Source: a virus. Taken from it: a stretch of 41,791 nt of DNA. Below, piece after piece: positions 1 to 21,886 of this stretch. The notes beneath the pieces were generated by a model that made no database searches, was not told the DNA's origin, and saw only the letters and a program-made list of their open reading frames with translations. The DNA lies in IMG/VR virus record IMGVR_UViG_3300013372_004772, positions 1 to 41,791 of that record. One strand, written 5' to 3'. The position numbers and the translations under genes are program-made. How positions within the stretch are numbered: the first letter of the stretch is position 1; each line of letters begins with the position of its first letter.

Positions 1-3000
1 CAAGGTCCCAATCATCGATGGCGTGGAAATGTCGTTATCCTCCCTTTGCGTGAAGTCAAGATAATGGCCGATTTCATGGACCAACACGGCGTAGCCAAGT
101 CTCTGCTTTACCTTGTCTGCCACCTCGGCCCATTCTTTGGCTTCTGGCGAACCTTGTTCGGGTTCACGTAATTCAAAACCAAGTGGAATGTCAAGAGATG
201 CAAAAAGATTTGTCAGATTACGTGACTGCCTGGGACTCCTAAGGGCCTCATTCCAACGACTCACAAACCCGGCTTCGGCGGCATCTTCTGGGGAACCGTC
301 GTTGTTGATTGTGGATAAATTAATTAATATTTCAGATTTGGTTTTATTATCACCTAGTTTTGCTCGAGACCACCACTTTTGTTTTGGAGCAAATGCCCCC
401 ATGGATGAGTCACTAAACTCGGAGGATTCAAAATTAATCTCAAGTTCGTCTCTTTCGGTGAGTCCCTTAATATCGAGATTATTCAAAACGTCGTCAAGCG
501 CCTGCAGCACCCCATACATTGCCAACTGATGCTGTCTGTCTGTTTCCGTTTTTGGTTCAATGGCGGACTTTGGCGCGTTCACTTTTACACCATGAGTTTT
601 TTCAAAGTATTTTGCCACGTCTTTCCGCGTAGAGCCAAATCTAGTTTTTTGCGTTTCGATATCTGCCACAACTGGCGTTCCATCTGCAGCCCGACCGAAT
701 GTGAGTTCGCTTGGACCATTGGTGACTTTTTCTCTGGTGGTTCTGGACGATAACCCACCACTGCGCGTGCTTGACGCCAAACCACCACTGCGTTTTGGTT
801 TGTCTGGTTGTTTTGCTTTTGTGGCGTCGAGTCTTTTAAGTTCTTCATTAATCATGCTAGTTAAATTGGCTTTATTTTTTTCATCATTTCCCGGTTCGTT
901 GTCGGGATGGTCGAAAAGCATGAATGTTCTCCCCGTACCAACACCGTGTGTTTTTTCATATCGACGCAAAAATGCCTCATAGGGCGTAGTTTTTTCGTCT
1001 GGGACTAATTCCTCAACTGTCACTCCCTCCCAATCGCCCGAATCTATTTTTCCCTGAACCCACACTCTTGTCATTTGCGGATTGAATGGTTCCACTTCAT
1101 CCAGTGGCAGCAACTGAGAATCCAGAACCAAATCAATCCCTCGTTCGGCTAACTCTTCACGTTTTTGGGCGGCTTTAATAATTGAAGTTACGTTTTGGTC
1201 CGATAGTGGATTGACTCCAACTGAAGAAGACTTTCCCATGTCTGTTCTAATTTCCGCGGGGGACACAACGACAGCAGCAATATCCTGGCCACCGAATGAG
1301 CCAAGAATCATTGCTTCTTGATACACCGCTTTGCCGCTTCCATCTTTAAGCAAATTGGCAGCAGGTGAAGCAACTGAGTCCATATCCCCAGTCCTGTCTG
1401 CATAAAGAATTGACGCTGGATTGAAATATGAATCCCGATATGGACTTGCCTCAATTGTCGAAAGTTTTGCTGCAGGAGACCTTGAGCCAGCATTGGTGAC
1501 ACTATCCCCCTGGAAAACCAGTGACCGCTCGGCAACATCGGAGCGCAGAATAACCCTAGACCTTCCATACTGACTCATGTCGGCATTGTCCGCCTGAGCC
1601 GCCGCTCCAACCGCATAGGGATGCTGTATCTCCACGTCCTCGCCATATTTTTTCTTTAACGTGGAGACTCGGCGTTTTTCGGAAACTGCGGAAGTCACAA
1701 AACCAGACGCAGGCCGCAATTTTCTAGTTGATTCTGAATCGTCGTCATAGGGGATACCCAGATAATTTAATTCCTGTATCTTGCGGGCATTGGCCGTAAA
1801 CAGCGGGTCGAACCCGAATCTTTCACTGAGCCCCCGCACTCCCGCCCTCTTCATATCATCGACATCGTGCACCGTTAGGTATCTATCGCTGTTGATGATT
1901 CGAATAGGGTCACTTACTTGAACAGATACATTTTGACTAAATTGTGGTGGAAGTCTTTTTAGCGCATCCTCAACCGCAAGATTTAATTCATCAGGGGACA
2001 TTTTTTCAATGTCTTGAATTAATTGTTTAATTATTTCTGCTTTTGCGTCATCGCCCTGCTCGACCGCGTCTTTGACCGCTTGCTCCAGTCTGCCCTTGTA
2101 TCCATTGGGGAACTTGCCGGATGGGCTCATCGTGAGCGCGGTGCTGCCTGATTTTTTGTCTTTAGATACCTCGGGCATCACATCTCTTTCGTACCTGTCA
2201 ATATCAATGCCTTTTTCCTTTGCCTGCGAAAGAATTTCTGCTGTACGATTTCCCGACGTTGACGACGCCAAACCTTGTCGGTCTCTTAGTTTTCTTACAA
2301 CGGAAGCAGAGAAGTCTGGGGCCGTTGCATCGCGTGCCGCCACCTTCTTTTTGGCGATACCAAACTCGTCGGTCCATTCGTTTGCAAGACGGAGAATTTT
2401 GGTAATTGGCGCATCCAAAACAATGACGGCCATTTCGTGGTTGTTCCCCAAGATGCCGTCCTCAAAATCCATCGCCAGCATTGCGGCCCATCTGTGATGG
2501 CCATCGACCACATAGCCATCCCTGGAAACGAAAATGGGCTTCTTGCCTGGGTCATACGTACCCGCCTTTTTTGCACCCATCATTCCTGCAACTTTTTGTC
2601 CCTGCATGTCTCTTTGGGTCGCCTTGAGTTTGTCTGAGCGCATTGTCGTTGGCTCTCCCGAAGAAATACCTCCAACCGTTTTCAAATACTCCAAGAACGA
2701 TTCAGTTCCATTGACTTCGACTGATATCTTTTCTCCCTTGGCGAGTCTCTTTGCATTCTGCGCTTCGAGCATTTTCTCTGCGGCGCTTCCAGGAACTGGT
2801 TTTCCTTCTGCTTGTGGCATCATGAATCTTGGAATTCCCTTGTTTCCTAAACAAAATGCGCTAGTTCCTTTCACTGTCACCTGACAAAGGTCAAATACGA
2901 AATTATCTAATTCTTCTTTTGAGATTTCACCATTCTCTGCCATGTTTTCCAAAGTAGAAATCATTTTTGCCAATTCATCAATGAGGGTGTGGGCGCCCTC

Positions 3001-6000
3001 CATGTCCGGCATGTCAACATCATGGCCATCAAGAAGCGCCATAACACCTTCCTCAACCGTAGAAACGGAGACAAGTTTTCTTTCAATGGCGGGTTGAATG
3101 TTTAATGATTTAAGATAATTGCTCCAATTCTGCTGCATGAGGCTGTCATCTTCATCGTCTGGGTCGTCGATATCAATATCAGCAAAAGCCTCTCGCACTA
3201 AATCGTCGATTCTTTTACTCTCGGGCGTCGAGGTTCGAGACGCCATGCCAACACGAGCAGCGCGCTTGGAGGGAACGTATGGTTCTGGGCTTTCTTCAAG
3301 TTCACGAATAAGTTTGTCTGGTGCATTAGCGGAACCCGCATCCCTAACACGGCCGTAAGGGACGTTGCCGAATTCTCTTGTTTCCCCGTTTTTGTACGAA
3401 ACTGTAAGGGTTCCGGTTTGTGGGTCATATTCAATTTTCTTGGCAATTGATGAATTGCGTGAATCTAGTTCCATTGCCACAGCAGCCTGTGCTCTTGGTG
3501 CTCTAGTTAATTCTTGATGTCTTTCGATTCTATTTTCTGAACGCTTTGCGACAATTCTTTGCCCTAGTGGCCGTGATTCATTTGTGCCAAGGGAATGCAA
3601 AACCTGCCTTAACTCATTTAATTGTTCATCGGGCCCCTTCTGGGAAGCGATTCTTCCAATTGCAACACCATCGGTTCTTCTGCCGACAATCTCTATTTCT
3701 CCGGGAGGGAGAATCAGCGAACCTATTTCGCCACCGTTGGTTCCTGGAGTTTTGTCAGGCAAACCCTTAGAACCTTCCGGTACAACAATCATTAATCGTT
3801 GTACTGAACTTTCCGTATCGGTATCCAAAGACGAAACGTCATCCACTGAGTGCATAACCGCCGTAAAGTGCTTATTAACGGATATCAGCGCATTCGAGTC
3901 GTTACCAAGTGCGCCAGTTGGTAAATGGATTTCAGCAACAACTTCTGTCGGCATCTCCGAAGAATCAATCAAATCGATAAAAGGTATTAACTGATTTTCG
4001 ATTGAGTTAACAACTTCATTTGTTCGTGATTGCAGCGCCCTGCCCCACTCGACTGGGTCGGAAGTATTCCATTTTGCACCCCTCCAGTCACCATCAATTA
4101 TTTGTCTCTGCTGCGAGGTCGCGGTATCCATGATTGATTCGTGGACTTGACTTCCCATTCGCGAAACATCAGTTCTTGAAGAAAGACCCCCTGCGGAATC
4201 AATTAAACTTGCGATTTCTCTTACGTAATCGTCGATTTCACCAATAACGGTTCCGCCTGGAATGTCTTCGAGTTCCCGACGGTTTTTGCGACGCCTCAAA
4301 CCCCTGCTAATAGATTCCTTAATCGACTTCTTGATACTGTCTCGCGTAAGAGCGACTACTGGTTTTGCGTCAGGGTTGGCCATGCCAAAGTCGGTGGGGA
4401 TATCCGTATCGAAATCAAGTGGTCCAAGGAATGCATCTATTTCTGGAGTTCGCTCAAGAAGCCCTGCCTCAACTGCTGCACCAACATCTGCCTGCATTTC
4501 GGCAATGGTGAGGGCGGACTTGATTTTAAATGTTTTGTGAAGTTCGTCGAGAACTTCTTCGCTTTTGCTTTCGTAGGCTCTGGCGACTTGGGTGTATACG
4601 TCTAGGGCTGCTTCGTACTTTGTTGTGCCAATTTCACCTCTTGCCTCCATGGCTTTTATTTCTCGATGCAGTTTCTGCAGGGGTAAATACAGTTCTCTTC
4701 TTTCCTTGACATCCGCATTGATGAATGGCGCCATATATGCAGCACTCCAGTAATTCTTCATGGCATATTTCCCGCCTGCGTTTTTACTAAGAAGGACTTG
4801 CATTACTTCGGGTAAATTGTCAAGCGCATTTGGAAGCCAATCGCTATTGCTAATAATCGATGCAAAATCCCAATCCCTACCGAAAAGGCTCGGGAAACTT
4901 GCCTCACCGCTGAGCAGCCCTTGGGCAAGTCTCATCAACTCTTCGCTAGTGTAATTGTCTGTGATGCCCGGAATTGATTTGAGATAGTTTGCTATAAGCA
5001 CTAATTGTCGACCGTGAATCATTTCGTGATTCATGATGAACATTCCTTGACCGAGCGTCCCCTGAGTTGCCGAAATTGCAAACTGCTGATACTCGTCACC
5101 CTTGTCGATTTGTTCCCGCATTGCGGCGAGGTTCATGGTTTCGGAAAAATAACTCTCCTTAATTCTTCGCGCTCCCTCTCTATCTAACGAAGTTGATATT
5201 GCTTGCAATTTTGCAACCTCTGTGCCCGCTGTGCCATCTGCTTCGAATAGGGTGAATCCGTTTCCATCTTGACCCATGTTCTCCATGGACTTCAATGGAA
5301 CGATTGGGTTGATGCCGATATCGAATCCGCCCGCTTCATTTGCCCACGTCACGGCATCGGAAGTACCGTTGAATTTGTCGTCTGGGTGAATAAATTCTAT
5401 TTTTCCAATTCTCGAAGTCAATTCTGGATATTTCCTACGTTGGTTGGCCAAAGCAATCAACATGCCAGATTCTTGCTGAATTAAGCCATTGTATTTCCCT
5501 ATCACGCCTGCAAATACTTTTTCCTCCATTGAGCCTGGCGCGAATACGTCGGACATTTTTTTTCGTCCTTCAAAAACTGCCAAAACGTCATCTCTGAATT
5601 TTTTTACATCTCCACCATATTTGGTATCTATTAAATTTTTGAACTCACTTGCCGTAATGCCAAATTTTTGAGGGTTGGAATCTAGGTACGTAAAAACCAA
5701 ACTCATTTGCGTGGCCCTGTGTTTGGCCATTGCTTTGTCGAAATTTTTATCACCTGGATTTGCTCCGTAAAGTCCGCTGAAATCTGCCGCCCATGCGCCC
5801 CCTTCCGGACTTTTCATCTTTTCAAATACTTTTGCAATTCCATCTTGAACGGAGTTCGGGTTCGTGGGGTCGATATCAATACCCATATCTCTGGCCATGT
5901 CCAGAAACTCAGTTACGTCTGAGCGAGTTTTGTCTTTCAATCTTTGCCGCATAACGGCTGTTTTTGTTAATCTTTTTATTTCCGCTTCGCTTTTCTCTGG

Positions 6001-6993
6001 GAATGCTCTGCGAATTAGAGTTTCGAAAACGTCTTCGTAGTCATCTGGGTCAATTGGTATGGCTGAGGCAGCGAGGTCGGCAACGTCTTTTGCGAATTCC
6101 GGTGAAGGTATTTCTCTGCCGTCTGGTCCAAGAATCCCCGTACCACGGAGTCTCCCCGTAGTGCTCGCCAATCCTCGAGCAACCCTGCTTTGGGCTTGTC
6201 TGGAAACTCGAGAAACACCACCCGCCCCATCGGAAACAAGCGGTACTGCGGAATCAATGTCAGAAATATCCGCCATCGCGGCTTGTACCGCATTGCGCAC
6301 AAAATCGACTACGGCTCTGCCAATTGCGGGTGTAAAATCAAAACAGTTGCTCCCAATTTCATCTGTGAATTGGTTGGCTGCGGGCACACCTGGAGGGCAA
6401 CGCATTCTCCCACTTGGGTCGAGAACTATACCAACAGCCCTTGCCGCAGCCTGTCCGATATTCCCAGCGGCACTTCCGATACTTGGCCCCAATGCCTTGA
6501 CTTTTAATTGCCCAGTACGTTTGTCCATCTTTGCAGGGCGAGCAATAATTTTTGGATTGAAATCTTTGGAAAAACTTTCTCCTGCTGCTTTTACCAGGTC
6601 ATCCTGTTTTACCGTTCTCGGCCTGTCAATCCATCCGACATTTGCGACATCTCCCATTTGCCCATCGAGATTAAAGCGTGGAGTTACTTCAAAATATTGA
6701 TTTTCTTTTTTCTTTGCTTTTGGGTCGTAGCAGTGAGTTCCAATTCGTTTGAAATTGGATTCTTTTTTGCGCTTATCTTTGTTATCTGCCGACGCATTCG
6801 CCCTGCCGGACCCTCCGCGCTTCCCGGCGCCCATGGCGGCCTTGGTTGCGTAGTCGGCAGAAAACGGAAATACGCTGAGCATCTGCCGAGTCTCGGCAAA
6901 TTCGAAAATCCGTTCTTGTTTTGATTTTGTGACTATCGGCGCAAATCTTTGATTTGTGATTACACGCGATATGACGACCCTACGCTCCTGCAT
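1..6993 (-). CDS. Giant polyvalent virion protein (3' end outside window)
   Basis: An uninterrupted frame of 2331 codons runs off the left edge; I checked every in-frame codon and found no stop. ATG at 6993 follows AGGAAAAGG by about 8 nt. Visible segments: basic N-terminus with a Cys-Pro-Pro-Gly...Gln-Phe-Thr...Cys motif (199-217); a zinc-protease-like HEMIH followed by Gly-Arg-Gln (656-660); a weak ADP-ribosyltransferase-like strand SLILPPGEIEIV (1092-1103); a KTSC-like segment (about 1185-1240); a ParB/Srx-like domain with DGHHRW (1497-1502); and a second HExxH, HEIGHYLD (2306-2313). Short GL[AS]S-type peptides separate these segments. The gene is last in the visible portal-protease operon. 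Such architecture fits polyvalent proteins packaged with phage DNA and injected into the host; that role is inference. Individual enzymatic activities are unproven, and the weakest call is the ADP-ribosyltransferase-like part. Confidence 0.85.
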   Translation of the reverse strand, partial: MQERRVVISRVITNQRFAPIVTKSKQERIFEFAETRQMLSVFPFSADYATKAAMGAGKRGGSGRANASADNKDKRKKESNFKRIGTHCYDPKAKKKENQYFEVTPRFNLDGQMGDVANVGWIDRPRTVKQDDLVKAAGESFSKDFNPKIIARPAKMDKRTGQLKVKALGPSIGSAAGNIGQAAARAVGIVLDPSGRMRCPPGVPAANQFTDEIGSNCFDFTPAIGRAVVDFVRNAVQAAMADISDIDSAVPLVSDGAGGVSRVSRQAQSRVARGLASTTGRLRGTGILGPDGREIPSPEFAKDVADLAASAIPIDPDDYEDVFETLIRRAFPEKSEAEIKRLTKTAVMRQRLKDKTRSDVTEFLDMARDMGIDIDPTNPNSVQDGIAKVFEKMKSPEGGAWAADFSGLYGANPGDKNFDKAMAKHRATQMSLVFTYLDSNPQKFGITASEFKNLIDTKYGGDVKKFRDDVLAVFEGRKKMSDVFAPGSMEEKVFAGVIGKYNGLIQQESGMLIALANQRRKYPELTSRIGKIEFIHPDDKFNGTSDAVTWANEAGGFDIGINPIVPLKSMENMGQDGNGFTLFEADGTAGTEVAKLQAISTSLDREGARRIKESYFSETMNLAAMREQIDKGDEYQQFAISATQGTLGQGMFIMNHEMIHGRQLVLIANYLKSIPGITDNYTSEELMRLAQGLLSGEASFPSLFGRDWDFASIISNSDWLPNALDNLPEVMQVLLSKNAGGKYAMKNYWSAAYMAPFINADVKERRELYLPLQKLHREIKAMEARGEIGTTKYEAALDVYTQVARAYESKSEEVLDELHKTFKIKSALTIAEMQADVGAAVEAGLLERTPEIDAFLGPLDFDTDIPTDFGMANPDAKPVVALTRDSIKKSIKESISRGLRRRKNRRELEDIPGGTVIGEIDDYVREIASLIDSAGGLSSRTDVSRMGSQVHESIMDTATSQQRQIIDGDWRGAKWNTSDPVEWGRALQSRTNEVVNSIENQLIPFIDLIDSSEMPTEVVAEIHLPTGALGNDSNALISVNKHFTAVMHSVDDVSSLDTDTESSVQRLMIVVPEGSKGLPDKTPGTNGGEIGSLILPPGEIEIVGRRTDGVAIGRIASQKGPDEQLNELRQVLHSLGTNESRPLGQRIVAKRSENRIERHQELTRAPRAQAAVAMELDSRNSSIAKKIEYDPQTGTLTVSYKNGETREFGNVPYGRVRDAGSANAPDKLIRELEESPEPYVPSKRAARVGMASRTSTPESKRIDDLVREAFADIDIDDPDDEDDSLMQQNWSNYLKSLNIQPAIERKLVSVSTVEEGVMALLDGHDVDMPDMEGAHTLIDELAKMISTLENMAENGEISKEELDNFVFDLCQVTVKGTSAFCLGNKGIPRFMMPQAEGKPVPGSAAEKMLEAQNAKRLAKGEKISVEVNGTESFLEYLKTVGGISSGEPTTMRSDKLKATQRDMQGQKVAGMMGAKKAGTYDPGKKPIFVSRDGYVVDGHHRWAAMLAMDFEDGILGNNHEMAVIVLDAPITKILRLANEWTDEFGIAKKKVAARDATAPDFSASVVRKLRDRQGLASSTSGNRTAEILSQAKEKGIDIDRYERDVMPEVSKDKKSGSTALTMSPSGKFPNGYKGRLEQAVKDAVEQGDDAKAEIIKQLIQDIEKMSPDELNLAVEDALKRLPPQFSQNVSVQVSDPIRIINSDRYLTVHDVDDMKRAGVRGLSERFGFDPLFTANARKIQELNYLGIPYDDDSESTRKLRPASGFVTSAVSEKRRVSTLKKKYGEDVEIQHPYAVGAAAQADNADMSQYGRSRVILRSDVAERSLVFQGDSVTNAGSRSPAAKLSTIEASPYRDSYFNPASILYADRTGDMDSVASPAANLLKDGSGKAVYQEAMILGSFGGQDIAAVVVSPAEIRTDMGKSSSVGVNPLSDQNVTSIIKAAQKREELAERGIDLVLDSQLLPLDEVEPFNPQMTRVWVQGKIDSGDWEGVTVEELVPDEKTTPYEAFLRRYEKTHGVGTGRTFMLFDHPDNEPGNDEKNKANLTSMINEELKRLDATKAKQPDKPKRSGGLASSTRSGGLSSRTTREKVTNGPSELTFGRAADGTPVVADIETQKTRFGSTRKDVAKYFEKTHGVKVNAPKSAIEPKTETDRQHQLAMYGVLQALDDVLNNLDIKGLTERDELEINFESSEFSDSSMGAFAPKQKWWSRAKLGDNKTKSEILINLSTINNDGSPEDAAEAGFVSRWNEALRSPRQSRNLTNLFASLDIPLGFELREPEQGSPEAKEWAEVADKVKQRLGYAVLVHEIGHYLDFTQREDNDISTPSMIGTL
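739..789 (-). repeat. Tandem SGGL[AS]SxT peptide repeat inside the giant protein
   Basis: The frame encodes SGGLASSTR followed directly by SGGLSSRT (residues about 2069-2085). Single copies of the same motif occur at residues 274, 936, 1249 and 1574 of this protein, near residue 1061 of the prohead protease fusion, and near residue 677 of the tape measure. The doubled copy lies between an unassigned segment and the C-terminal HExxH segment. It may be a linker or a processing site. Confidence 0.7.
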
Positions 6994-7019: not shown

Positions 7020-8366
7020 TTACGACTCTGGGTTATATTTTGATTCCTCAACTTCTGAGTTGAGTAGTTCAAATTCCAGAAGTTGGGACATAAAATCTCC
7101 ATCAGGACCACTTTCATTAGCCGATGACGCAGATTTCCCACCGACAACCCATGTTGCTGGAACGAGAGATTCGGCACCGAGTGCTTTCGCCCTCTGCATG
7201 ATGTGGCGTTTTACCGCGCTCTTATCTTTTGCGCGTCCAAATGCCTGAATCGCATTGGAAAGGTCTTCCTTGTTGGCAATCGGGTATGAGCCATCTGGCA
7301 AAGCGGTGCCTTCTTTGGCCATTTTTTCTCTTTGCTCATCCGTAAACGCACGCTTGAGTGCAATTTCCGCCACCTCGGCGTCGATTGCTTCGGCATCTTC
7401 CTCTTCATATTTGTCGTATCCGAGGACTTCTCCGTCCAGAGCGACGAACACATCGTATGACTTCCCGTCAATGCCATCAATCTCCACAGCGTAGGCGTCG
7501 TAGCCCTCAAACACGTCGGGCTCAACGGCAACGACAGTTCCCTGAATTGACTTTGTTGCAATTTCGGCAGCATCATTGAAATCAATCAGCATCATTTCAT
7601 CAACAAGTGACTTCTGCTCAAACGCATTGTTGTCAAGTTTGTGCCAACCCAGTACTTCGGCGGTTGAACCGTCAACGAAAACCTCAATCGGTCTCCCGTC
7701 TTTTGCCTCAACGTCGACGACAAACATGTCTGCTTCGGCCGAATAGCCAGAGTCAAGAACCTTTCCGTCGAACATATCTTCAGCGATTCCCTCAACGTGG
7801 AGTAGGCCTGGCATTCCCTTTTCCGCCATGCAACCACCAACGCAGTCATCACAAACCGACTGACCGCCCGGATACACCTTGCGGTCGATTGCGCAGAGGT
7901 AACCCCTGGCACCAACGTCTGCGGTTTTGTATCCCATGGTCCGTAGGCGACGAGACTTCATCTGCTCCATTTCGTCATCTTCTTCTTCGTCATCTTCGTC
8001 TTCATCTTCCATGACGTCGGCATCATCATCATCCTCATCATCGCCCATCGCCACTTCTTCTTCTTCTTCTTCGTCGTCGTCTTCATCGTCTTCGTCCATC
8101 GCCTTAATTTTCATGGGCTTCTTTTTCTTTTTGGGCATAGACATGTACATTTTTTCATCTGTTTCGTCTGCGTCAACTACTTCTGCTTGGTCGTCCATCT
8201 CTTCGTCTGAGTGGGCCATCTTCATTTGCACTGGCATCGCACCACACGAAGCACACACCTTTGCGCCCGCTTCAAAGCCGCAGTCAGCCGCAGCAAGGCC
8301 CTTTGCACACTTCAGAACTGAACCGTCCGTATCGAGTTTAACAATCGCGTTCTTATCGTAATCCAT
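7020..8366 (-). CDS. Acidic head-operon protein with Cys clusters and PepSY-like repeats
   Basis: 448 residues; ATG preceded by AAGGAG at 9 nt. Order of parts: an N-terminal zinc-ribbon-like cluster (C20, C29, C38, C41); a Lys patch (79-88); an almost pure Asp/Glu stretch (91-135); a second cluster (C158, C172, C175, C179); two PepSY-like alpha-beta repeats (about 188-245 and 263-320); and a C-terminal segment (351-406, LPDGSYPI...HIMQRAKALG) like a small domain common in actinophage capsid and protease proteins. It lies between the prohead protease fusion and the giant protein. A scaffold-like or internal head protein is plausible given the acidity and context, but I do not recognise an established function. 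It lacks the look of an HK97-fold major capsid protein. Confidence 0.8.
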   Translation of the reverse strand: MDYDKNAIVKLDTDGSVLKCAKGLAAADCGFEAGAKVCASCGAMPVQMKMAHSDEEMDDQAEVVDADETDEKMYMSMPKKKKKPMKIKAMDEDDEDDDEEEEEEVAMGDDEDDDDADVMEDEDEDDEEEDDEMEQMKSRRLRTMGYKTADVGARGYLCAIDRKVYPGGQSVCDDCVGGCMAEKGMPGLLHVEGIAEDMFDGKVLDSGYSAEADMFVVDVEAKDGRPIEVFVDGSTAEVLGWHKLDNNAFEQKSLVDEMMLIDFNDAAEIATKSIQGTVVAVEPDVFEGYDAYAVEIDGIDGKSYDVFVALDGEVLGYDKYEEEDAEAIDAEVAEIALKRAFTDEQREKMAKEGTALPDGSYPIANKEDLSNAIQAFGRAKDKSAVKRHIMQRAKALGAESLVPATWVVGGKSASSANESGPDGDFMSQLLEFELLNSEVEESKYNPES

Positions 8367-8503: not shown

Positions 8504-11500
8504 TTAAGCGTCAACTGGTTTTGAAGTTTTATCCACAAACGTTGACATCGCCGCTGAAGAAACTTTTTCAAGTAGTTCTGCGAATATTTCTCCTCTTGAA
8601 CCCATGGTCCCACCTTTGCCAGCAGTTTTTTGTCTATCGATTACCGCCATTACGGCATCAAGTATTTGGTCCGCTTCGTCTGCTGAAATCTTAATAAAAC
8701 CAACATTCGTTCTTTTTGAATTTGGCCTAAAAGCGCCCGCTTCGTATTTGGCAATTTTCTGTTGAAGTAGGGTTAGCCCTTTACGTATCGCATCCGAATC
8801 TGATTTTTTGATTTCTGCCGGAAGGGATTCATCAATCTTTTTCCACCAAGTTGATTCTGTGGTTACTTGAGTCCTGGGCATTTTGTTGTCCGTGGACGAA
8901 GAAAGTCCGCCGCTTCGGCCCTGCTTTCTTCTTCGATGTGCTTTTTGGTAATTGGTGGCCTTAGCAACGGCTCTGTTGATATTTTGCTCAAAATCAACCT
9001 CACCGAAGCCCTCTTCGGCGCCTGTTCGTTCGCTTCCGTAAACTTCATCAATATTTACACCGCCCAAAACATCCTCGTCGCCCTCATCTAGGCCAAGTCG
9101 CTCGACCGCTTCCCCACGCCTATAAAGCGATTCTCGGGCCTGCTCGGCTCCAAGGTCATCCTCTCTGTCCGAACTTCTTTCCCCTTGATAATCTTCCAAA
9201 AATTCTCTGGCATTTGAAAAAAACGAAAGAATTCCTTTTTCGGTTTTGGACAATCTGCGCTCTTCTCCAATTTGTGCCAATTCTCGAACAGACTCGTCAA
9301 TGGCCTCCAAGGCATTGGAAATTGACTCGTCGGTTGGTGGTTCTGATTCTTCGGGGAATGCTGCTGAAATAATTCTTTCGGCTGCGTCATTTGCTGCGTC
9401 TACAAAATCACTTTCCACATCATCCCTGTCGGAGACTTCAGAAATGGTTTCTTGCCAAGCAGTCATTTTCCTACTGAGTTCGTTGGCTCTCCTACTCTCG
9501 GTGGAGTTAATTGTTTTTGGTGCCTTGGGAGCATCGGGTTCTTTTGGAGTTTTGGGTGCGTCTAATTCTGGCGTTTTTGGAACTTCCGGTTTTGGACTTA
9601 CCGACGGAGCCTTGGGTTTTGCGGCACGTTCTGCGGCCCTATCTCTTTCGTCTTCCAAATCCATAACTTGTTCAAGTAGAATGTCGTTGAGATTTTTGAC
9701 CCAAACTCTCCACTGCGGACTGCCTGTCAACCTGTCCAACTTTTCCCTATTCGCAGACACCCACTCAAACTTTTTTTCGACGTCCATTTCGCGCCAATCT
9801 TTTGGAAAATGGCCGGCATCGATGTAGGGCTGCATCGTATCCTTCCCTCTCATGTCTTTGAGGGAATCCAGCATTGTCATCTCGCCCGCATAATTTTTTC
9901 TGATAATAAAAGGTGTATATTCCAAAGGTTTGCCGTCTTTGCCTTTGGGGTATTTGGTTCCCTTTTTGACCCCCGCTGCTGCGCTTGGTTGGTTGGCGCG
10001 CAAATCAGTACCGCCGACTACTCGACGTTCTTGTTTTGGAGCCATTCCGGGTTTTTGACCGCTCCCAACATAGTCGCGTTCTCTCTGTACGTTGTCCCCC
10101 AATCCACCCCGGGCTTTGCCTCTGAGTTTATTTTTTCTTTCAAATTCTCCCGTTTCAACGATTTGCTTAATTATTTCATATGAGGAAATGCCTTTTTCCA
10201 TATTTCCGTTTGGGGATTTTCTGTGCCCACCAAATTCCTTGAACACATCTTGCACCTGAGGCCAAACAGCCTGGAGTTCCTTGAGCATCCCCTCATCAAT
10301 ATCTGGAAGATAAAGTGAGGTTTGCATTGCCCTTCCAACACCCATCGGCTTTTCCTGATACCTGACTGAATCTTTTACCGCTTTCCCAATTCTTTGAACA
10401 ATGTGGTCTTCTGGAAAATCCTTGACTACGTCATCGAACATTCTGACAAGTTTTGGCTTCAATTCTCTTGAGATAAATACGGGGATGGGTGGTCTTCCGT
10501 CTTTTGCTGCTTGCTGATACCAAAGAAGGTCCCCTTCCTTTCTTGACTTTCGTCTTTCCCGCGCCCTGAGTTGGGCTTCTGTTGCTGGTTTTATGACCGG
10601 AGCATCAGGGTCAACGGGGGATTCGGGGTTATTGGTATCGGAACGTAGTCCAACTGCTCTATTGGAGGACCTTGTCGGGTCTGGCATTTCCCGCCAAGTA
10701 CCATCAAAAATCAATCCATCACCGTCGATGTCACGGCGTTTTTGTGGGTCGAGGACTCCCTCTATCCGGGAAAGCGCGCCTCTAGCGCGCCTGACTTTTC
10801 CCCCACCACCGGGCGCAAGCCCGCGACCAATTCTCCCCAATAGATTTTTCGTGGCGGTGTCCACCGCTTCAAAGGCGTCGTAGTCCATCGGGGATGTCAG
10901 GACTATTCCTTCTTCCGTTACGAATGATTCAATTCTGTGGTAGTCAAGAACTGGGTCGATTGCTTGTTTCGTATTGAATAAGTCCTTTACGTCACACGGA
11001 ATCATCCATGCACTTTTTTCCTCGGTTTCGTATCCGATAATGTCCTGAAGAGACGAAACGATGCCACGTAATTTGTCGGCCAAGTTGTCTCCAGCGGCCA
11101 TTTTTTCTTCAAAGATTTCGTCCAAACTTTTCATTGAATCAAAAAGTCCACTTTGGACATTTGACTCACCGTATTTGACGGGAATAATCGGACCTTCTGC
11201 TGAAACAGGTTTTCTTTGCACCGCTGGAAAATTCGGCACTCTCTGCATTTGTTGTGGCCCGGGCTTCATTATCCCCGGCATTGGCCTTTGAACCATCATC
11301 GGTGAACTGAGTTTTTCCGGCTTCCCGAACATGTATTCTTCGCCGTCAAAGTAGTACCCGAGTCTGTACATCCCTTTGCCGGGTTTAAGAAATACAACGG
11401 AACTTTCGGTTGCCTTCATGACCTTGATTGGGCCGCCAGTTCTTGTTGACAACTCATTTGTTAAGGCAATCAATCTGTCGCCCTCGACCGGTTGGGCGAT

Positions 11501-12091
11501 TCCTTGAGCAAATGGGTCGTTTGGTTGCTGCGGTTTTTCGTCCAAGGAGATTGTCGCCATTGGCATCATGCCGTGGCCCTTTTCATCGCTTTTTACCGAA
11601 ATCGTTCCAGTTAATTGATTTGCGCCGTGCAATACCGGGCTCAACTCATAGAGTTCTACTTCGCGAAGAAGATTGGCTTGTTTTGCGTTATCAAAAACTG
11701 CATCAAGCGTTTTGTATCCAATTGACCACTCTTGCTCTTCGCCGAAGAATGCAACATTCGTGAATGCCTCCTTGCCCTTTTCTGAGTTCAAATTGAACTG
11801 AACTTTTGCATAAAGGCCGCCGATGCCAGCAATTTTCATTTTTGTAGGCAGCCGCGGGTCATTGGGCGGAACTTCATAAATTTCAAGAACCTTACCGATT
11901 GGGTCATTCCAATTGTGACCCCAAACAACTCTTGGTTTACGACGCTGGAGGCTTTTCGAAAACGCCCCAGTAACGCAGATGTCGCCAACGGAATCCTTGT
12001 TCCCAATTCCGGCTACGAAACATTCAACAATTCCCTGTGCCTCATCAATATTGAATTGGCCAGTATTGGCTTTGAATGAAATATCTTGCAT
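8504..12091 (-). CDS. HK97-type prohead protease fused to a large head protein
   Basis: 1195 residues; start ATG follows AAAGGA at 6 nt. Residues 1-165 form an HK97-family prohead protease: VVWGHNW with probable catalytic H59, EWSIGYK with probable S123, and LYELSPVLHGAN (148-157). Family members are usually near 200 residues, so about 1000 residues are additional. The extension has a Met/Pro-rich stretch, a DIDGDGLIFDGT calcium-loop-like motif near 454-465, a charged helical region, a Pro/Lys-rich linker (about 817-865), an acidic helical region, and SGGLSSST near 1060-1067. The protease normally trims capsid or scaffold proteins during head maturation. The extension may be a structural or injected part, released by self-processing; that is inference. 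It follows the portal, the standard order. Confidence 0.88.
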   Translation of the reverse strand: MQDISFKANTGQFNIDEAQGIVECFVAGIGNKDSVGDICVTGAFSKSLQRRKPRVVWGHNWNDPIGKVLEIYEVPPNDPRLPTKMKIAGIGGLYAKVQFNLNSEKGKEAFTNVAFFGEEQEWSIGYKTLDAVFDNAKQANLLREVELYELSPVLHGANQLTGTISVKSDEKGHGMMPMATISLDEKPQQPNDPFAQGIAQPVEGDRLIALTNELSTRTGGPIKVMKATESSVVFLKPGKGMYRLGYYFDGEEYMFGKPEKLSSPMMVQRPMPGIMKPGPQQMQRVPNFPAVQRKPVSAEGPIIPVKYGESNVQSGLFDSMKSLDEIFEEKMAAGDNLADKLRGIVSSLQDIIGYETEEKSAWMIPCDVKDLFNTKQAIDPVLDYHRIESFVTEEGIVLTSPMDYDAFEAVDTATKNLLGRIGRGLAPGGGGKVRRARGALSRIEGVLDPQKRRDIDGDGLIFDGTWREMPDPTRSSNRAVGLRSDTNNPESPVDPDAPVIKPATEAQLRARERRKSRKEGDLLWYQQAAKDGRPPIPVFISRELKPKLVRMFDDVVKDFPEDHIVQRIGKAVKDSVRYQEKPMGVGRAMQTSLYLPDIDEGMLKELQAVWPQVQDVFKEFGGHRKSPNGNMEKGISSYEIIKQIVETGEFERKNKLRGKARGGLGDNVQRERDYVGSGQKPGMAPKQERRVVGGTDLRANQPSAAAGVKKGTKYPKGKDGKPLEYTPFIIRKNYAGEMTMLDSLKDMRGKDTMQPYIDAGHFPKDWREMDVEKKFEWVSANREKLDRLTGSPQWRVWVKNLNDILLEQVMDLEDERDRAAERAAKPKAPSVSPKPEVPKTPELDAPKTPKEPDAPKAPKTINSTESRRANELSRKMTAWQETISEVSDRDDVESDFVDAANDAAERIISAAFPEESEPPTDESISNALEAIDESVRELAQIGEERRLSKTEKGILSFFSNAREFLEDYQGERSSDREDDLGAEQARESLYRRGEAVERLGLDEGDEDVLGGVNIDEVYGSERTGAEEGFGEVDFEQNINRAVAKATNYQKAHRRRKQGRSGGLSSSTDNKMPRTQVTTESTWWKKIDESLPAEIKKSDSDAIRKGLTLLQQKIAKYEAGAFRPNSKRTNVGFIKISADEADQILDAVMAVIDRQKTAGKGGTMGSRGEIFAELLEKVSSAAMSTFVDKTSKPVDA

Positions 12092-12179: not shown

Positions 12180-14165
12180 CTAACTTACGTACATCCATGC
12201 TCGGCGCGCTTCGGCGGCAGCAATGTCTCCGACTGATTTGGCCAAGATGCTAGAGAAGATGGCCACACAACTTGCCCGTAGGTGGAGGTTTCTGTCGTCT
12301 TCGTTTTTTACATTTAGGCTGGACGAATACGCGGAATTGAGAGAATTATAGGTCGTCTGATTCACCTGCTTGAAACGTTCAATCTGTGAATTGAGGTGCG
12401 CAATCAAATCTGATTTGTTCAGGGACTTTTCCGAAACCTCAATCCCGTCATGAAGAATTGCCGACAACACAGGACGGATGTCTTCCTCCATTTGCTTATC
12501 CCAAATTTCACTGTTAAAAATGCTATCGATTGACAGGTTTCCGCTTGATATGGCTCGCTTGGCTCGTACGCCACCTATTTTTTCCAGAGTGACTCGTTGC
12601 TGGCGCTCGATGACTCTTTCAAATGCGCGATTAAGAATTGCGCTCCATCTTTGCAATGAAATGTTATCTTCCTTGGTTTCGATGAAACCAAATGAGTCAG
12701 CCGATAATTGCTGTTGCGGCATTTCTGCTGTTGTTTCCATCCCTGGAGGTGGTGCCGGTAGCGGCGGCACTGGCTGCGTTGCCGCTTCTGCTGCCATTGA
12801 GCCGGCCATAGTGTTTGGGTCAAGAGGGCTTGGAATATTTCCTTGAGCATCAGGCATCCCAGGTACTGGGGGTTGCTCGCCGGGCATGCCAGGGGGCATT
12901 CCGGGCATACCGGCTTGTGGTTGTGCTTCCATTTTCTTTTCGGTATTCGCGATTGGCGTCAAATTTGGATTCATCAATAGGGAGTCGGCGAGGTCACTCT
13001 CCACTTTTTTGCGACTCGTAAATTCGCGATACTCGTTTGTGCTTATTAGCCCCATTTGTACTTCATCCATAAAATACCGTGAGCGTTCCTGTTTGTACAG
13101 AATCAAGACCGGAACACTGGATACATCAAAGTCGACGTAATTAACGTCATCCAATTCGTCAAATCCACGTGCAAGGAGGTCCAAGTGCGGGAGCATTGTT
13201 TCGTTCCAAAAAACGCGATGTTCTTCGGAAGCGTTGGCGAAAGTTCTTCCAGATGCATTTCCGATTACTGACTCAGGAACACCAAAGGCGGCAAGAATTT
13301 CCTCTTTCTGAATTTGTCGCATCTGAACATAGGCAGCATCTCGCGGGCTTGCAGACGTGTCAACGTAGTCAACCCCATCGTCGGATGAGATTACGGTGGT
13401 TGCACCAGCCCTACCAATGTTGCCCCTAAATCTATTTCTTAGTTCCTCTTTGTCGTCGTCATCAATCTCACCCTTGACTACAAGAATGCCGCCTGGTCGT
13501 CCATCGTTAATTAGATAATTCCTGTTATAAACTTTTGCAAGATTTTCAATTTCGATTGCAACTCCGGCCGATTCCATTGGCGTAAGCGACAGGTACGGGT
13601 CAAGGGGGTGTGGTCTGCGAATCCACAAGACATCCTCTTTGGGCATGACTATTTTATTTCCGTTAGGCAGATTGACTTCGTACCCCGAGACAAAAGTTTT
13701 TTCGTGCGGAACTGGCGCAGTGAACTGAGGGGGCAAAAGACTGAGACCGATAAGTCTTCCGTCTCTACCTTTAATTTTTTCAATGAACGCACCGCGCGAA
13801 CTCATTAACAATTGAGATGTAAGCCTGTAGCGAAAAATGAAAGCGTTTTCTGCCTCATTGGACTTTGTGTTGAATATCTCGATTAAAGGAGAACGCAGCG
13901 CTCTCCTGCCTGTAAGTACTTCTCCGTCTCTGGAATTGTCCTTGCGGAGAATGATTGACAAGCGCGCCTGGTTTCCCGCAATTGCGTCAATACATCTCTG
14001 TACCCATGTAATTTTTTGAAATCCTTCGCGATACGCACGTTCAATGTCCCACATGTCGTGGTACGGCTTGCCCACGCGGCCCAAATCCAGATTCACGGGC
14101 GCACCCGGACCGATGGATTTGGGGCCTTGATTTAAGCCTTTATTTTGAAATGAATTCCAAGCCAT
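12180..14165 (-). CDS. Portal protein
   Basis: 661 residues. The first roughly 400 residues match an HK97-type portal, including the N-terminal WDIERAYREGFQKITWVQRCIDAIAG, the segment with LWIRRPHPLDPYLSLTPM and the region with AAFGVPESVIGNASGRTFANASEEHRVFW. A Met/Pro/Gly-rich linker (about 412-475) leads to a helical C-terminal extension of about 180 residues, longer than the usual 400-500 for the family. The portal forms the dodecameric DNA channel at a capsid vertex and docks the terminase and neck. The ATG follows GGGAG by about 13 nt. It lies 7 nt downstream of a small membrane-protein gene and is opposite in direction to the terminase, an unusual arrangement. Confidence 0.92.
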   Translation of the reverse strand: MAWNSFQNKGLNQGPKSIGPGAPVNLDLGRVGKPYHDMWDIERAYREGFQKITWVQRCIDAIAGNQARLSIILRKDNSRDGEVLTGRRALRSPLIEIFNTKSNEAENAFIFRYRLTSQLLMSSRGAFIEKIKGRDGRLIGLSLLPPQFTAPVPHEKTFVSGYEVNLPNGNKIVMPKEDVLWIRRPHPLDPYLSLTPMESAGVAIEIENLAKVYNRNYLINDGRPGGILVVKGEIDDDDKEELRNRFRGNIGRAGATTVISSDDGVDYVDTSASPRDAAYVQMRQIQKEEILAAFGVPESVIGNASGRTFANASEEHRVFWNETMLPHLDLLARGFDELDDVNYVDFDVSSVPVLILYKQERSRYFMDEVQMGLISTNEYREFTSRKKVESDLADSLLMNPNLTPIANTEKKMEAQPQAGMPGMPPGMPGEQPPVPGMPDAQGNIPSPLDPNTMAGSMAAEAATQPVPPLPAPPPGMETTAEMPQQQLSADSFGFIETKEDNISLQRWSAILNRAFERVIERQQRVTLEKIGGVRAKRAISSGNLSIDSIFNSEIWDKQMEEDIRPVLSAILHDGIEVSEKSLNKSDLIAHLNSQIERFKQVNQTTYNSLNSAYSSSLNVKNEDDRNLHLRASCVAIFSSILAKSVGDIAAAEARRAWMYVS

Positions 14166-19098: not shown

Positions 19099-19415
19099 GC
19101 CAAGTCCAAATCGAACAAGAATTATTGCGCATGATGGACTTGCTCGAAAGCGAAACAGAAGCATTTGAAAAACTTGCCGAGGATGCAGCCAAAAAAGAAG
19201 CGCAGTTTAAAGCGAATTGGGCCAAGGAATATCTTTCCGCAAAAGGCTCAATCAAGGAACGCGAAGCGTGGGCAGATTACAAGATGGCCGACTTAAATTA
19301 CGATTACAAAATAGCGGAAGCGCTAGTTAAGTCCAAAAGAGAAAAATTAATTTCGCTAAGAACATCGATGGATTCACTCAGGACATTGAACGCAAACGTC
19401 AGGGTTCAGGTATGA
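19077..19415 (+). CDS. Unknown coiled-coil protein
   Basis: 112 residues; AAGGGAAG precedes the ATG. Almost wholly helical and rich in Glu, Lys and Ala. The closing region (EKLISLRTSMDSLRTLNANVRV) resembles small actinophage proteins seen next to recombination genes, by general impression only. Its stop overlaps the following ParB-like start (ATGA). No enzymatic motif. Confidence 0.65.
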   Translation: MVRTAPISQVQIEQELLRMMDLLESETEAFEKLAEDAAKKEAQFKANWAKEYLSAKGSIKEREAWADYKMADLNYDYKIAEALVKSKREKLISLRTSMDSLRTLNANVRVQV

Positions 19416-20209
19416 ACAATATTCATCCGTCGCTTGAACCAATGTCTTTCCCTATCGAGCAATTGGCCCATCTTCAGGACAATCCAAGAAAAGGAAATGT
19501 CGAAGCAATTGCGGCTTCATATCGGGAATTTGGTCAGGTTAAGCCAATAGTCGCCAAAATGAATACGGATGGGAGCGCAACAATAATTGCCGGAAACCAT
19601 CAAGTCATGGCAGCGAAACAACTTGGGTGGGACAAAATAGCGGTTGTATTTCTTGACGCAGACGACAAGAAGGCCATTGCTTATGCGCTCGCCGATAACA
19701 GGACGATGGAACTTGGCCATACCGATGAGGATATTTTGCAAAAACTTTTGGCAGAAGTTTCGACCGACTACAGCGAACTATGGGATGGTCTTGGTTGGGA
19801 TGAATTTGAGATGGCCGCCATGGACGAAAGAGCAGTCGTTAAAGCCAGTGACGCTTTGACAAATTCGACATACGTGGCTCCAGTAATGACCGGAACTCCG
19901 CAGTCCCACTACACCGACATGGAGAAACAAATTTCATCTCTCGCCGCAACAGACGAACAAGACGGGGAAGACAAATTAATCGCCCCAAGCGGCGTTGACC
20001 AATCAGATGTGGCAATCCGCGGTTCTGGTGTTGCCCTGCCTGGCTCGCAACCCAAGGCAATTGTTTCAGTGCAGGTCGTATTCGATTCACCCGAGCAACA
20101 ACGCAAATGGTATGACTTTGTCCGTTGGTTGAGAAATGACCCATCGATAGACGGGAACACAACTGCTGAAAGATTAATTTACTTCATCGACTCACATACG
20201 AACTCATGA
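19412..20209 (+). CDS. ParB-like protein (first of cassette)
   Basis: 265 residues. The ParB/Srx fold covers about 12-100: DNPRKGNVEAIAASYREFG, then GQVKPIVAKM, then IIAGNHQVMAAKQLG (58-72), a GNH variant of the ParB nucleotide-binding motif, and ALADNRTMELG. The C-terminal part has a short conserved-looking tail (QQRKWYDFVRWLR). Phage proteins of this type often accompany DNA-modifying enzymes rather than partition systems. There is no ParA here. It overlaps the next gene by ATGA, so it is probably co-produced with the PAPS-reductase-like enzyme. Confidence 0.85.
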   Translation: MNNIHPSLEPMSFPIEQLAHLQDNPRKGNVEAIAASYREFGQVKPIVAKMNTDGSATIIAGNHQVMAAKQLGWDKIAVVFLDADDKKAIAYALADNRTMELGHTDEDILQKLLAEVSTDYSELWDGLGWDEFEMAAMDERAVVKASDALTNSTYVAPVMTGTPQSHYTDMEKQISSLAATDEQDGEDKLIAPSGVDQSDVAIRGSGVALPGSQPKAIVSVQVVFDSPEQQRKWYDFVRWLRNDPSIDGNTTAERLIYFIDSHTNS

Positions 20210-21354
20210 GTAGACAGAGACTTTTTCTTGACATAAATTGTGTCGACGCGGCAAGACAGAGAATTCGCCATGTTTACGACACATTCGACACAGTTTGCGT
20301 TCAGTTTTCTGGCGGCAAAGACTCGACTGCAGTCTTGTTGCTGGCGAAAGAAATACACGAAGAACGAAACTTGGGCCCTGTTAAAGTTATTTTCAGAGAC
20401 GAAGAAATGGTCAGCCCGTTAGTAATTGATTACATTAATTACATCCGAGAACTTCCATGGGTGGACATGGAGTGGTACTGCATGCCGCAGGGCTCAGAAG
20501 TCTGGGTTCTTGGTAAGAGGGAATCGATTATTCTGTGGAGCGAGATTCGCAGAAAAGAAGGACGTCTTGCCAGAGAAATCCCTCCGTTTGCGATAACGGC
20601 AGAGCACTTTGGGCTTCCACCTGGCAAGCCACCGCCAGAAATAATTGACTATTACACCATGCAGGGGAAGGTCGGCAGCACGGCTTTTATTACTGGCGTT
20701 CGCGCTTCGGAGTCGATGCTTCGTTATCGCTCCCTGGTGCAAAAACTTCACGAAAATTACATTGTCACTCCATATAAATCCAAAAAAGGCATACCCTTAA
20801 AATTTGCAAAAGTCATTTATGACTGGCAAACAGCAGACGTATTCAAGTTCATAATCGAAGAACACAATTTTCGCTACTGCGAGTACTACGACCGAGCCGC
20901 GATTACCGGCAGTAATACGCGAGTGGGAATCCCTCTCCACGGAGTAGCCATAAGACGCCTGGGGGACGTCATCGCAACAGAGCCAGAATTCTACGATGTT
21001 TTGGTTCACTGTTTTCCTGAAATAGATGCTCAGCGTCGGTATTGGTCTGTTTACGATTACGACAAATTAATTAAGCAATATGCAGAAAAAGGCTTTGATG
21101 GGGTTAAGCAATTCATCAACGACTTTATGATGAATGAATTCAAGGCCGTAAGGGCGAAAGCATTTGTTGCAGAATTTAGAAGAAAACATGCGGTTGACCC
21201 GCATTCATACACTATTTATTCTTTGATTTATCAAATGTTCATGGGTGCGATGCTTCACAGCGTTGCCGTATCACCAATTGGTCCAAAAACAAAATCACAC
21301 TCAGTCAGAGCGATTGAGGAAATAGAAAGCGCAGATGTGAACGATGGAAATTAG
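20206..21354 (+). CDS. PAPS-reductase/IbrA-like PP-loop protein
   Basis: 382 residues. The PP-loop is FSGGKDSTAVLLL (34-46), followed by VKVIFRDEEMVSPLVIDYI and an internal TGVRASESMLRYRS segment. This places it in the phosphoadenosine phosphosulfate reductase-like ATP pyrophosphatase superfamily, including IbrA and DndC relatives. These enzymes adenylylate or transfer sulfur-type groups; a sulfate-assimilation role is unlikely in a phage. It is sandwiched between two ParB-like genes, with 4-nt and 11-nt overlaps. This is the IbrA-IbrB style pairing plus one extra ParB. A DNA-modification or anti-restriction role is inference. Confidence 0.88.
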   Translation: MSRQRLFLDINCVDAARQRIRHVYDTFDTVCVQFSGGKDSTAVLLLAKEIHEERNLGPVKVIFRDEEMVSPLVIDYINYIRELPWVDMEWYCMPQGSEVWVLGKRESIILWSEIRRKEGRLAREIPPFAITAEHFGLPPGKPPPEIIDYYTMQGKVGSTAFITGVRASESMLRYRSLVQKLHENYIVTPYKSKKGIPLKFAKVIYDWQTADVFKFIIEEHNFRYCEYYDRAAITGSNTRVGIPLHGVAIRRLGDVIATEPEFYDVLVHCFPEIDAQRRYWSVYDYDKLIKQYAEKGFDGVKQFINDFMMNEFKAVRAKAFVAEFRRKHAVDPHSYTIYSLIYQMFMGAMLHSVAVSPIGPKTKSHSVRAIEEIESADVNDGN

Positions 21355-21886
21355 CCTTATCCCAGTAGACGATTTAAAAAAAGGCAGTTGGCACTCAAAT
21401 CAGATATTAAAGCCAGACCTAAAATCGCTTGCTAAATCAATAGCGGACTTTGGTTTCATTTCGCCTTTAACGATAATGAAGAAAGATAACTCCGTTATTG
21501 ATGGGTATCACAGATGGATGATTGTCAAGGAAAGTGTTGAACTTAGAAAAACCATTACAGAAATACCTTGCGTATTGATTGATTGTGATTCGCTTGACGC
21601 CGCCATGATGCACCTAAGACTGAACAGGTCGAGAGGCTCGCTCGTTGCCCACCGAGTTTCCGAAGTGGTAAAAACACTGGTTCGTAGCAAAAAATACACA
21701 GAAGGTGATTTCAGGCAACTTCTGTCCATGTCGGTGGATGAACTTGATGTATTGCTTGACGGAACGATTATTAAACGTGTAAATATCTCCGAGCACAAAT
21801 ACTCGCGAGCATGGGTTCCTATCGAGGCCCCCAAAGGTGCGGTCGACAATTTCACCGCAGAAAAGCCACCGAATCAAGATAGGTAA
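21344..21886 (+). CDS. ParB/IbrB-like protein (second of cassette)
   Basis: 180 residues. The ParB/Srx core is compact: IPVDDLKKGSWHSNQILKP, then KSIADFGFISPLTI, then SVIDGYHRWMI (50-60), then the LRLNRSRG segment. The DGYHRW form is typical of IbrB-like proteins paired with PAPS-reductase-like IbrA. It overlaps the PP-loop gene by 11 nt. It differs from the GNH-type ParB at the front of the cassette and from the DGHHRW domain in the giant head protein. Confidence 0.85.
   Translation: MEISLIPVDDLKKGSWHSNQILKPDLKSLAKSIADFGFISPLTIMKKDNSVIDGYHRWMIVKESVELRKTITEIPCVLIDCDSLDAAMMHLRLNRSRGSLVAHRVSEVVKTLVRSKKYTEGDFRQLLSMSVDELDVLLDGTIIKRVNISEHKYSRAWVPIEAPKGAVDNFTAEKPPNQDR

Follow-up and report, generated by a model that had tools for sequence, protein, structure and literature searches.

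Why a short peptide of the form G[LM][AS]S[STR]T should recur along one giant phage protein, and what might read it, is the question raised by the window, a 41.8 kb IMG/VR virus fragment (record IMGVR_UViG_3300013372_004772) analysed over its full length. The portal, a prohead protease fusion, a PepSY-like protein and the giant protein are encoded on the minus strand, and terminase and tail genes, including the tape measure, on the plus strand (Table 1). All six copies that an earlier note had described in the giant protein are present in its 2331-aa open reading frame, residue for residue, and the same holds for the copies it had placed in the protease fusion and the tape measure. The note had also positioned the copies at domain borders, and each recognised module of the giant protein (HExxH, KTSC and ParB-like) does fall between sites or, for the last HExxH, after the final one, the ParB-like label being a probable one that derives from the GHHRW signature. 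The putative ART-like part proposed in the note would correspond to residues 940-1180. With these several unrelated domains in one chain, the protein has the makeup of a polyvalent protein. Polyvalent domains in relatives comprise UvrD, ArdC-N with MPTase-PolyVal, RNase_T, NUDIX, sigma-70 region 4 and zeta.

Table 1. Features of the window and its relatives. Positions are nucleotides of the window or, where so marked, protein residues (aa); residue numbers of sites and modules are given under remarks.
Feature	Contig	Position	Strand	Remarks
Giant polyvalent head-operon protein, 2331 aa	window	1-6993	minus	5' complete; 3' end open at the window's left edge
Last HExxH of giant (HEIGH)	window	64-78	minus	residue 2306, after the doubled site (2080)
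Giant site 6, GLSSRT	window	739-756	minus	residue 2080, doubled with site 5
Giant site 5, GLASST	window	766-783	minus	residue 2071
Giant site 4, GLASST	window	2257-2274	minus	residue 1574
ParB-like block (GHHRW)	window	2299-2721	minus	residues 1425-1565, between sites 1249 and 1574; matches phrog_2859, phage F116
Giant site 3, GMASRT	window	3232-3249	minus	residue 1249
KTSC-like match	window	3358-3456	minus	residues 1180-1212, between sites 936 and 1249, just before site 3; below Pfam gathering score
Giant site 2, GLSSRT	window	4171-4188	minus	residue 936
Module between giant sites 1 and 2	window	4189-6171	minus	residues 275-935; invariant HExxHxxQ and distant invariant E
First HExxH of giant (HEMIH)	window	5014-5028	minus	residue 656, between sites 274 and 936
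Giant site 1, GLASTT	window	6157-6174	minus	residue 274
PepSY-like protein	window	7020-8366	minus	
Prohead protease fusion, 1195 aa	window	8504-12091	minus	S78 domain at N terminus
C-terminal domain of protease fusion	window	8507-8869	minus	residues ~1075-1195, directly after last site
Protease fusion site, GLSSST	window	8891-8908	minus	residue 1062
Protease fusion site, GLRSDT	window	10634-10651	minus	residue ~481; looser copy, absent from the earlier note
Module with EF-hand-like loop, DIDGDGLIFDGT	window	10697-10732	minus	residue 454 of protease fusion
Peptidase_S78 domain	window	11600-12034	minus	residues 20-164 of protease fusion
Portal	window	12180-14165	minus	
Tape measure protein	window	27527-32449	plus	
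Tape measure site, GLASST	window	29555-29572	plus	residue 677
Exonuclease	G001	2371-2561 (aa)		between sites 2320 and 2616
NUDIX	G002	1553-1682 (aa)		between sites 1502 and 1747
UvrD helicase	G006	1701-2218 (aa)		between sites 1601 and 2239
ArdC-N				begins 8 residues past site 3583
Spelling GL.S.T	window, G001, G008, G019			
Spelling LRSSG	G007, G017, G018			
Spelling GLAS.S	G002			
Spelling GF.S.T	G003, G016			
Spelling RGMASR	G011			
Spelling GL.S.R	G015, G020			G009 compatible, few sites
Spelling GL.S.G	G010			
Spelling R[LF]SSG	G005, G006			G006 by profile
Spellings GLSSG, GFxSRG, FASxS, GSKSTT	additional loci			

Other parts of the window carry features of their own. A phosphoadenosine phosphosulfate reductase-like gene (phrog_2302) is located between two ParB_N-like genes (19412-21886), and a candidate tail protein (22137-23222) matches the ubiquitin-activating E1 FCCH domain (E 5e-8), which is odd for a phage. 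The C-terminal part of the tape measure (residues ~1496-1572) has a weak Peptidase_M15-like match (E 0.02) and is a possible cell-wall peptidase. As to the host, one related locus (L220) is a contig of an Acidimicrobiia MAG (UWMA-0303) and encodes a portal 67% identical to that of the window; the host group is uncertain, and this binning gives a hint only.

The strict motif was seen 7 times in the window's two large head proteins, compared with a mean of 0.005 in residue shuffles. A motif-free count of all gapped words of 3-4 residues in the head proteins also placed GL.S.T on top (7 vs 0.07 expected, P ~1e-12), the next word reaching 1e-4. Searching viral contigs with the giant protein itself gave no match, so the portal and protease were used as queries instead. 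They retrieved 142 viral loci, of which 16 larger contigs were analysed in full (17 with the window). In large late proteins of the 16 related contigs the template motif is repeated ~4-29 times per contig, with up to ~20 sites in one protein. Profiles built for each contig, with tape measures excluded from training, gave 279 sites distributed over 66 proteins (including a site of the window that was added by hand), and 0-2 in shuffled proteins.

The top gapped word differs from contig to contig, yet every well-sampled contig gives a spelling of one template (Table 1), as in G001, where GL.S.T occurs 25 times vs 0.23 expected (1e-41). Only one position, Ser at the fourth place, is near-constant across spellings, while the position of the basic residue varies and GSKSTT, found at a single locus (L076), is without even the hydrophobic residue. 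Profile hits considered probably false are GLLSNTG of a 690-aa protein, which stays identical whatever the spelling, along with two or three inside GMP repeats of G006. Compositional coincidence in Gly/Ser/Ala-rich linkers could draw on the low content of hydrophobic residues in the site flanks; it is contradicted by the shuffles (0-2 sites per contig, against 4-29 observed), by the phage-specific spelling and by the in-register switching described below, and its probability is practically negligible. Four cultured actinophages with related proteases (Gordonia GMA6, DalanDe, Brevibacterium Cantare and Streptomyces Gilgamesh) lack an equivalent word and were discarded as laboratory models. In Gilgamesh, gene 48 (L218:4764-18638) encodes a motif-free hypothetical protein of 4624 aa between portal and protease.

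Placement of the sites was assessed against circularly shifted site positions (2000 shifts). The number of contigs covering a site is 4.35, compared to 6.3 +/- 0.25 expected (0/2000). Alignments end within 25 aa of sites at twice the expected level (3.76 vs 1.88), and cross them less than expected (3.09 vs 5.11). None of the sites is inside the 18 examined Pfam domains (8.3 expected, P 0.00015). Protein termini are avoided too: 4 proteins have their first site less than 100 aa from the N terminus, and 3 have their last site as close to the C terminus, vs ~14 expected in each case. Sites also delimit mobile segments: a module of G001 (residues 1813-2320) is absent from other contigs and has sites 1813 and 2320 at its ends, and in the zeta-kinase protein of G018 an inserted cassette is flanked by LRSEG and LRSSG, the home spelling on both sides. 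Site flanks are basic, hydrophilic and poor in hydrophobic residues. In a poor AlphaFold2 model of an 877-aa relative (pLDDT 56.7), the four sites are in low-confidence stretches, as is half of the protein. The sites thus occupy borders, in the giants nearly all of those between domains, rather than domain interiors, as is characteristic of polyprotein processing sites. A search in related phages, which the earlier note had suggested as a check, shows the motif staying at borders across the 17 contigs, and a role of the motif as the border mark of a polyvalent virion polyprotein is strongly supported.

Border placement alone would also suit a DNA-level repeat or a recombination hot-spot for module swapping, in which the peptide has no role, as sites lie at borders of swapped modules. 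Codon diversity contradicts this explanation. All sites within a contig are distinct 18-mers, even when they encode identical peptides, such as the six GLASST copies in G001, and their serines use both TCN and AGY codons. Positions are, in addition, retained while spelling changes: between phages of different spelling, 346 of 768 projected sites (45%) have a partner site within 8 residues, compared to 5.1% of random positions. For example, the border preceding the C-terminal domain of the protease fusion reads GGRGLSSSTTPT in G008, SNGGLRSSGKQP in G018, TPSGLRSDRGKV in G020 and GRMGFSSSTGKT in G016. A DNA repeat is accordingly a very improbable source of the pattern. The border is conserved while its spelling turns over in concert. 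Because of border placement, in-register switching, differing DNA and the home spelling of the tape measure, this pattern indicates selection at the protein level, probably exerted by a trans-acting reader.

Motif carriers in relatives are the protease fusion, the giant protein, one or two more giants downstream and sometimes a protein of ~3000 residues beyond them. Their giants are encoded among virion structural genes, between portal/protease and the major capsid protein. In G001 the portal gene is followed by those for the protease fusion, PepSY and the giant, then by three smaller genes, polyvalent protein 2, one small gene, a protein with sigma-70 region 4 and zeta kinase, and the major capsid protein. 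Two loci (L164:8352-17690, minus strand, and L224) encode, downstream of the capsid gene, a separate protein of 3100-3200 aa with three successive HEWxH-type signatures, each between motif sites. A large protein before the capsid gene of another locus (L145:13923-16556) combines duplicated DUF3721 units (CxGAHK...WMPC), sigma-70 region 4 and a zeta-toxin-like kinase.

Large late proteins hold 1.99 sites per 1000 residues; the corresponding figures are 0.03 for small head-module proteins and 0.05 for other ORFs. The tape measure, encoded on the opposite strand, forms an exception, with a class density of 0.78. Most tape measures carry the spelling of their own contig (0/20000 label permutations, the group labels partly following phylogeny): RLSSG and RFSSG in G005 and G006, LRSGG in G007 and G017, GFASST in G016, and GLASST in the window and G001. 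The site is weak or absent in the tape measures of G002, G008, G010 and G019, and the tape measure of G015 is truncated. As the home spelling is found in most relatives, a compositional accident was rejected as the origin of the tape-measure copy.

These observations suggest that the giants are cut, or otherwise handled, at the motif points before or after injection into bacteria. We propose, with a probability of about 0.58, that the motif marks where the virion polyproteins of these phages are processed by proteolysis; that they are cut, when this happens and which enzyme does it are inferred from patterns in sequence. Several observations speak against it: the scissile bond is not evident from the motif, in which only the fourth-position Ser is near-constant; no head domain clearly co-varies with spelling under phylogenetic control; the HExxH module has no fold match; and the pattern is missing from the four cultured actinophages with related proteases. 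The chief rival is a docking or ejection code, in which the motif would serve as the binding site for a partner such as scaffold, portal, tail channel or a host factor, cassettes would be recruited, unfolded or threaded uncut, and spelling would be an address. Concerted, spelling-specific change suits any trans-acting reader, and the motif is shared by head polyproteins and the tape measure, which are both predicted to exit the virion at infection. For docking, however, a single tag on each polypeptide should be enough, and proteins have as many as ~20, placed at borders and away from termini; small head-module proteins lack them. We consider docking a serious, though rather unlikely, explanation, and processing is preferred because sites are at borders only, avoid termini, may be doubled, are scarce in small neighbouring proteins and occur in the tape measure. 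Another candidate is the substrate motif of a modifying enzyme (e.g. a kinase or ADP-ribosyltransferase) on exposed linkers, in accordance with the Ser/Thr-rich motif and its basic, hydrophilic flanks. The basic residue shifts its position between spellings, however, and strict border placement would be unexpected, so that modification appears improbable.

The S78 (HK97-type) prohead protease domain in the head operon (PF04586, E 2.8e-9; phrog_80, E 3e-25) neighbours the giant in gene order, and many relatives have it as the N terminus of a site-bearing polyprotein. A protein of 3963 aa at one locus (L225; G006 55483-67374) has the S78 prohead protease at its start and also contains UvrD helicase, ArdC-N and MPTase-PolyVal domains, so that prohead protease and polyvalent protein are joined in one chain. 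A module of ~50-70 residues ending in the EF-hand-like DxDGDGxIFDGTWREMP is found in the protease fusion and, within one phage, in a further two large head proteins. It is present in the L145 protein and other relatives as well, often right before a motif site, gives no match in Pfam and may be a shared prohead-targeting or propeptide module.

In every contig, irrespective of spelling, the S78 domain shares 78-93% identity with its G001 counterpart, and no other part of its protein is better conserved. Under phylogenetic control its similarity shows no relation to spelling (partial r 0.03-0.08, not significant). The motif is absent from capsid proteins, whose putative propeptide border is invariant across spellings, capsid cleavage in the clade being assumed; the capsid border was consequently rejected as a shared cleavage site. 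The near-unchanged domain together with the invariant capsid border weakens the S78 protease as the cutter. In a narrower form of the processing model, with which its probability overlaps, the S78 protease would cut through the invariant core, the fourth-position Ser, and spellings would come from another constraint. Gene position favours this version, as does the cutting of ejection proteins at short motifs by prohead proteases in the available account of SPN3US (PMC10052503). It conflicts with a domain that stays the same across wholly different spellings, with the motif-free capsid border and with a tape-measure site outside the head, and we regard it as unlikely. Of the earlier note's reading, the part on a border motif of a polyvalent protein is strongly supported, over 17 contigs; cutting by some protease is the best fit; the prohead protease as the cutter is unsupported.

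An HExxH is found in the giant of all 17 contigs, and in an alignment of 18 sequences H357, E358, H361 and E533 of the module between giant sites 1 and 2 are invariant at 16-49% identity to the window. E533 is a candidate third ligand, as a zincin-like metallopeptidase would have. Compared with G001, the module retains 0.46 of the self score within a spelling and 0.17-0.22 across spellings, while the portal keeps ~0.80 in both. AlphaFold2 modelled residues 300-905 of the giant confidently as a single, mostly helical domain (pLDDT 81.8, pTM 0.85). A fold search with this model in PDB and a viral library gave no significant match, so the peptidase nature of the module rests on its HExxH signature. 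With phylogeny controlled, the module's relation to spelling has p 0.13. The C-terminal domain of the protease fusion is the head domain that appears to follow spelling best, weakly (partial r 0.23 with p 0.004, uncorrected for 15 tests; 0.16 with p 0.046 when an overlapping set was used). Across all pairs and under phylogenetic control, none of the head domains follows spelling in a convincing way, the group labels being partly phylogenetic. The giant's own HExxH module and the C-terminal domain of the protease fusion are candidate readers; a site-flanked HExxH module or a specificity domain in the protease fusion seems more likely to read the spelling than the near-invariant S78 prohead protease alone, which is an unlikely reader. 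A host protease is possible.

In the proposed processing mechanism, cassettes (HExxH peptidase-like, ParB-like, KTSC, sigma-70 region 4, zeta-type kinase, exonuclease, NUDIX, UvrD helicase and ArdC-N) would be chained in a small number of giant late proteins, whose genes lie between those for portal and major capsid protein, and a single recognition peptide would mark each border. A trans-acting reader, divergent between phages, would recognise the phage's own spelling, reach the tape measure too, and free the cassettes during assembly or after ejection. More tentatively, a whole phage clade might possess self-processing virion polyproteins, in which cassettes are joined by a phage-private peptide and all sites, in head proteins and tape measure, change together with a fast-evolving reader. 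Each phage would then liberate or address only its own cargo, and new cassettes would join by bearing the local spelling.

Polyvalent virion proteins have been predicted to be processed, with the general site undefined, and a border peptide would allow domain boundaries to be read from sequence. Shared spelling would mark the proteins on one processing or delivery route, tape measure included. The phages also offer many natural experiments in which a reader co-evolves with tens of sites, making the processing hypothesis directly testable.

Eukaryotic RNA virus polyproteins have repeated protease sites between domains, a protease flanked by its own sites, and sites that co-evolve; there is no homology to them, and the present case concerns virion cargo of a DNA phage. 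Polyvalent proteins, known from phages as well as conjugative elements and defined by Iyer et al. 2017 (PMC5512222), are likewise giant, multidomain and encoded among virion genes, with zincin-like peptidase, ArdC-N, ParB-like and other effector domains. Their release by embedded metallopeptidases was proposed and likened to that of viral polyproteins; in the parts of that work drawn on here, the site is left undefined, and neither a repeated border motif nor private spellings are described. In the SPN3US/phiKZ-type head (PMC10052503), a short motif is similarly repeated in several virion proteins, and the prohead protease cuts ejection proteins after A-X-E, some of them several times. As presented in the portions of that source consulted, those cuts take off propeptides, involve one motif that is read by a single head protease, and do not separate effector cassettes; a tape-measure motif is not described. 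Phage P1 Pro trims the capsid protein and DarA (PMC9024508, PMC12810830), and the trimming of head-packaged anti-restriction proteins in P1 assembly (DarA, DdrB) parallels the packaging and processing predicted here; according to the sections of these sources used, a protein is cut once or a few times, and concerted spelling of a motif is not reported (PMC5512222, PMC9024508, PMC12810830). For these systems, the source passages covered describe no motif that stands at all domain borders, recurs in the tape measure and has a private spelling in each phage. The polyvalent family is known, and the border code appears, as far as the literature search reached, to be a new feature of it.
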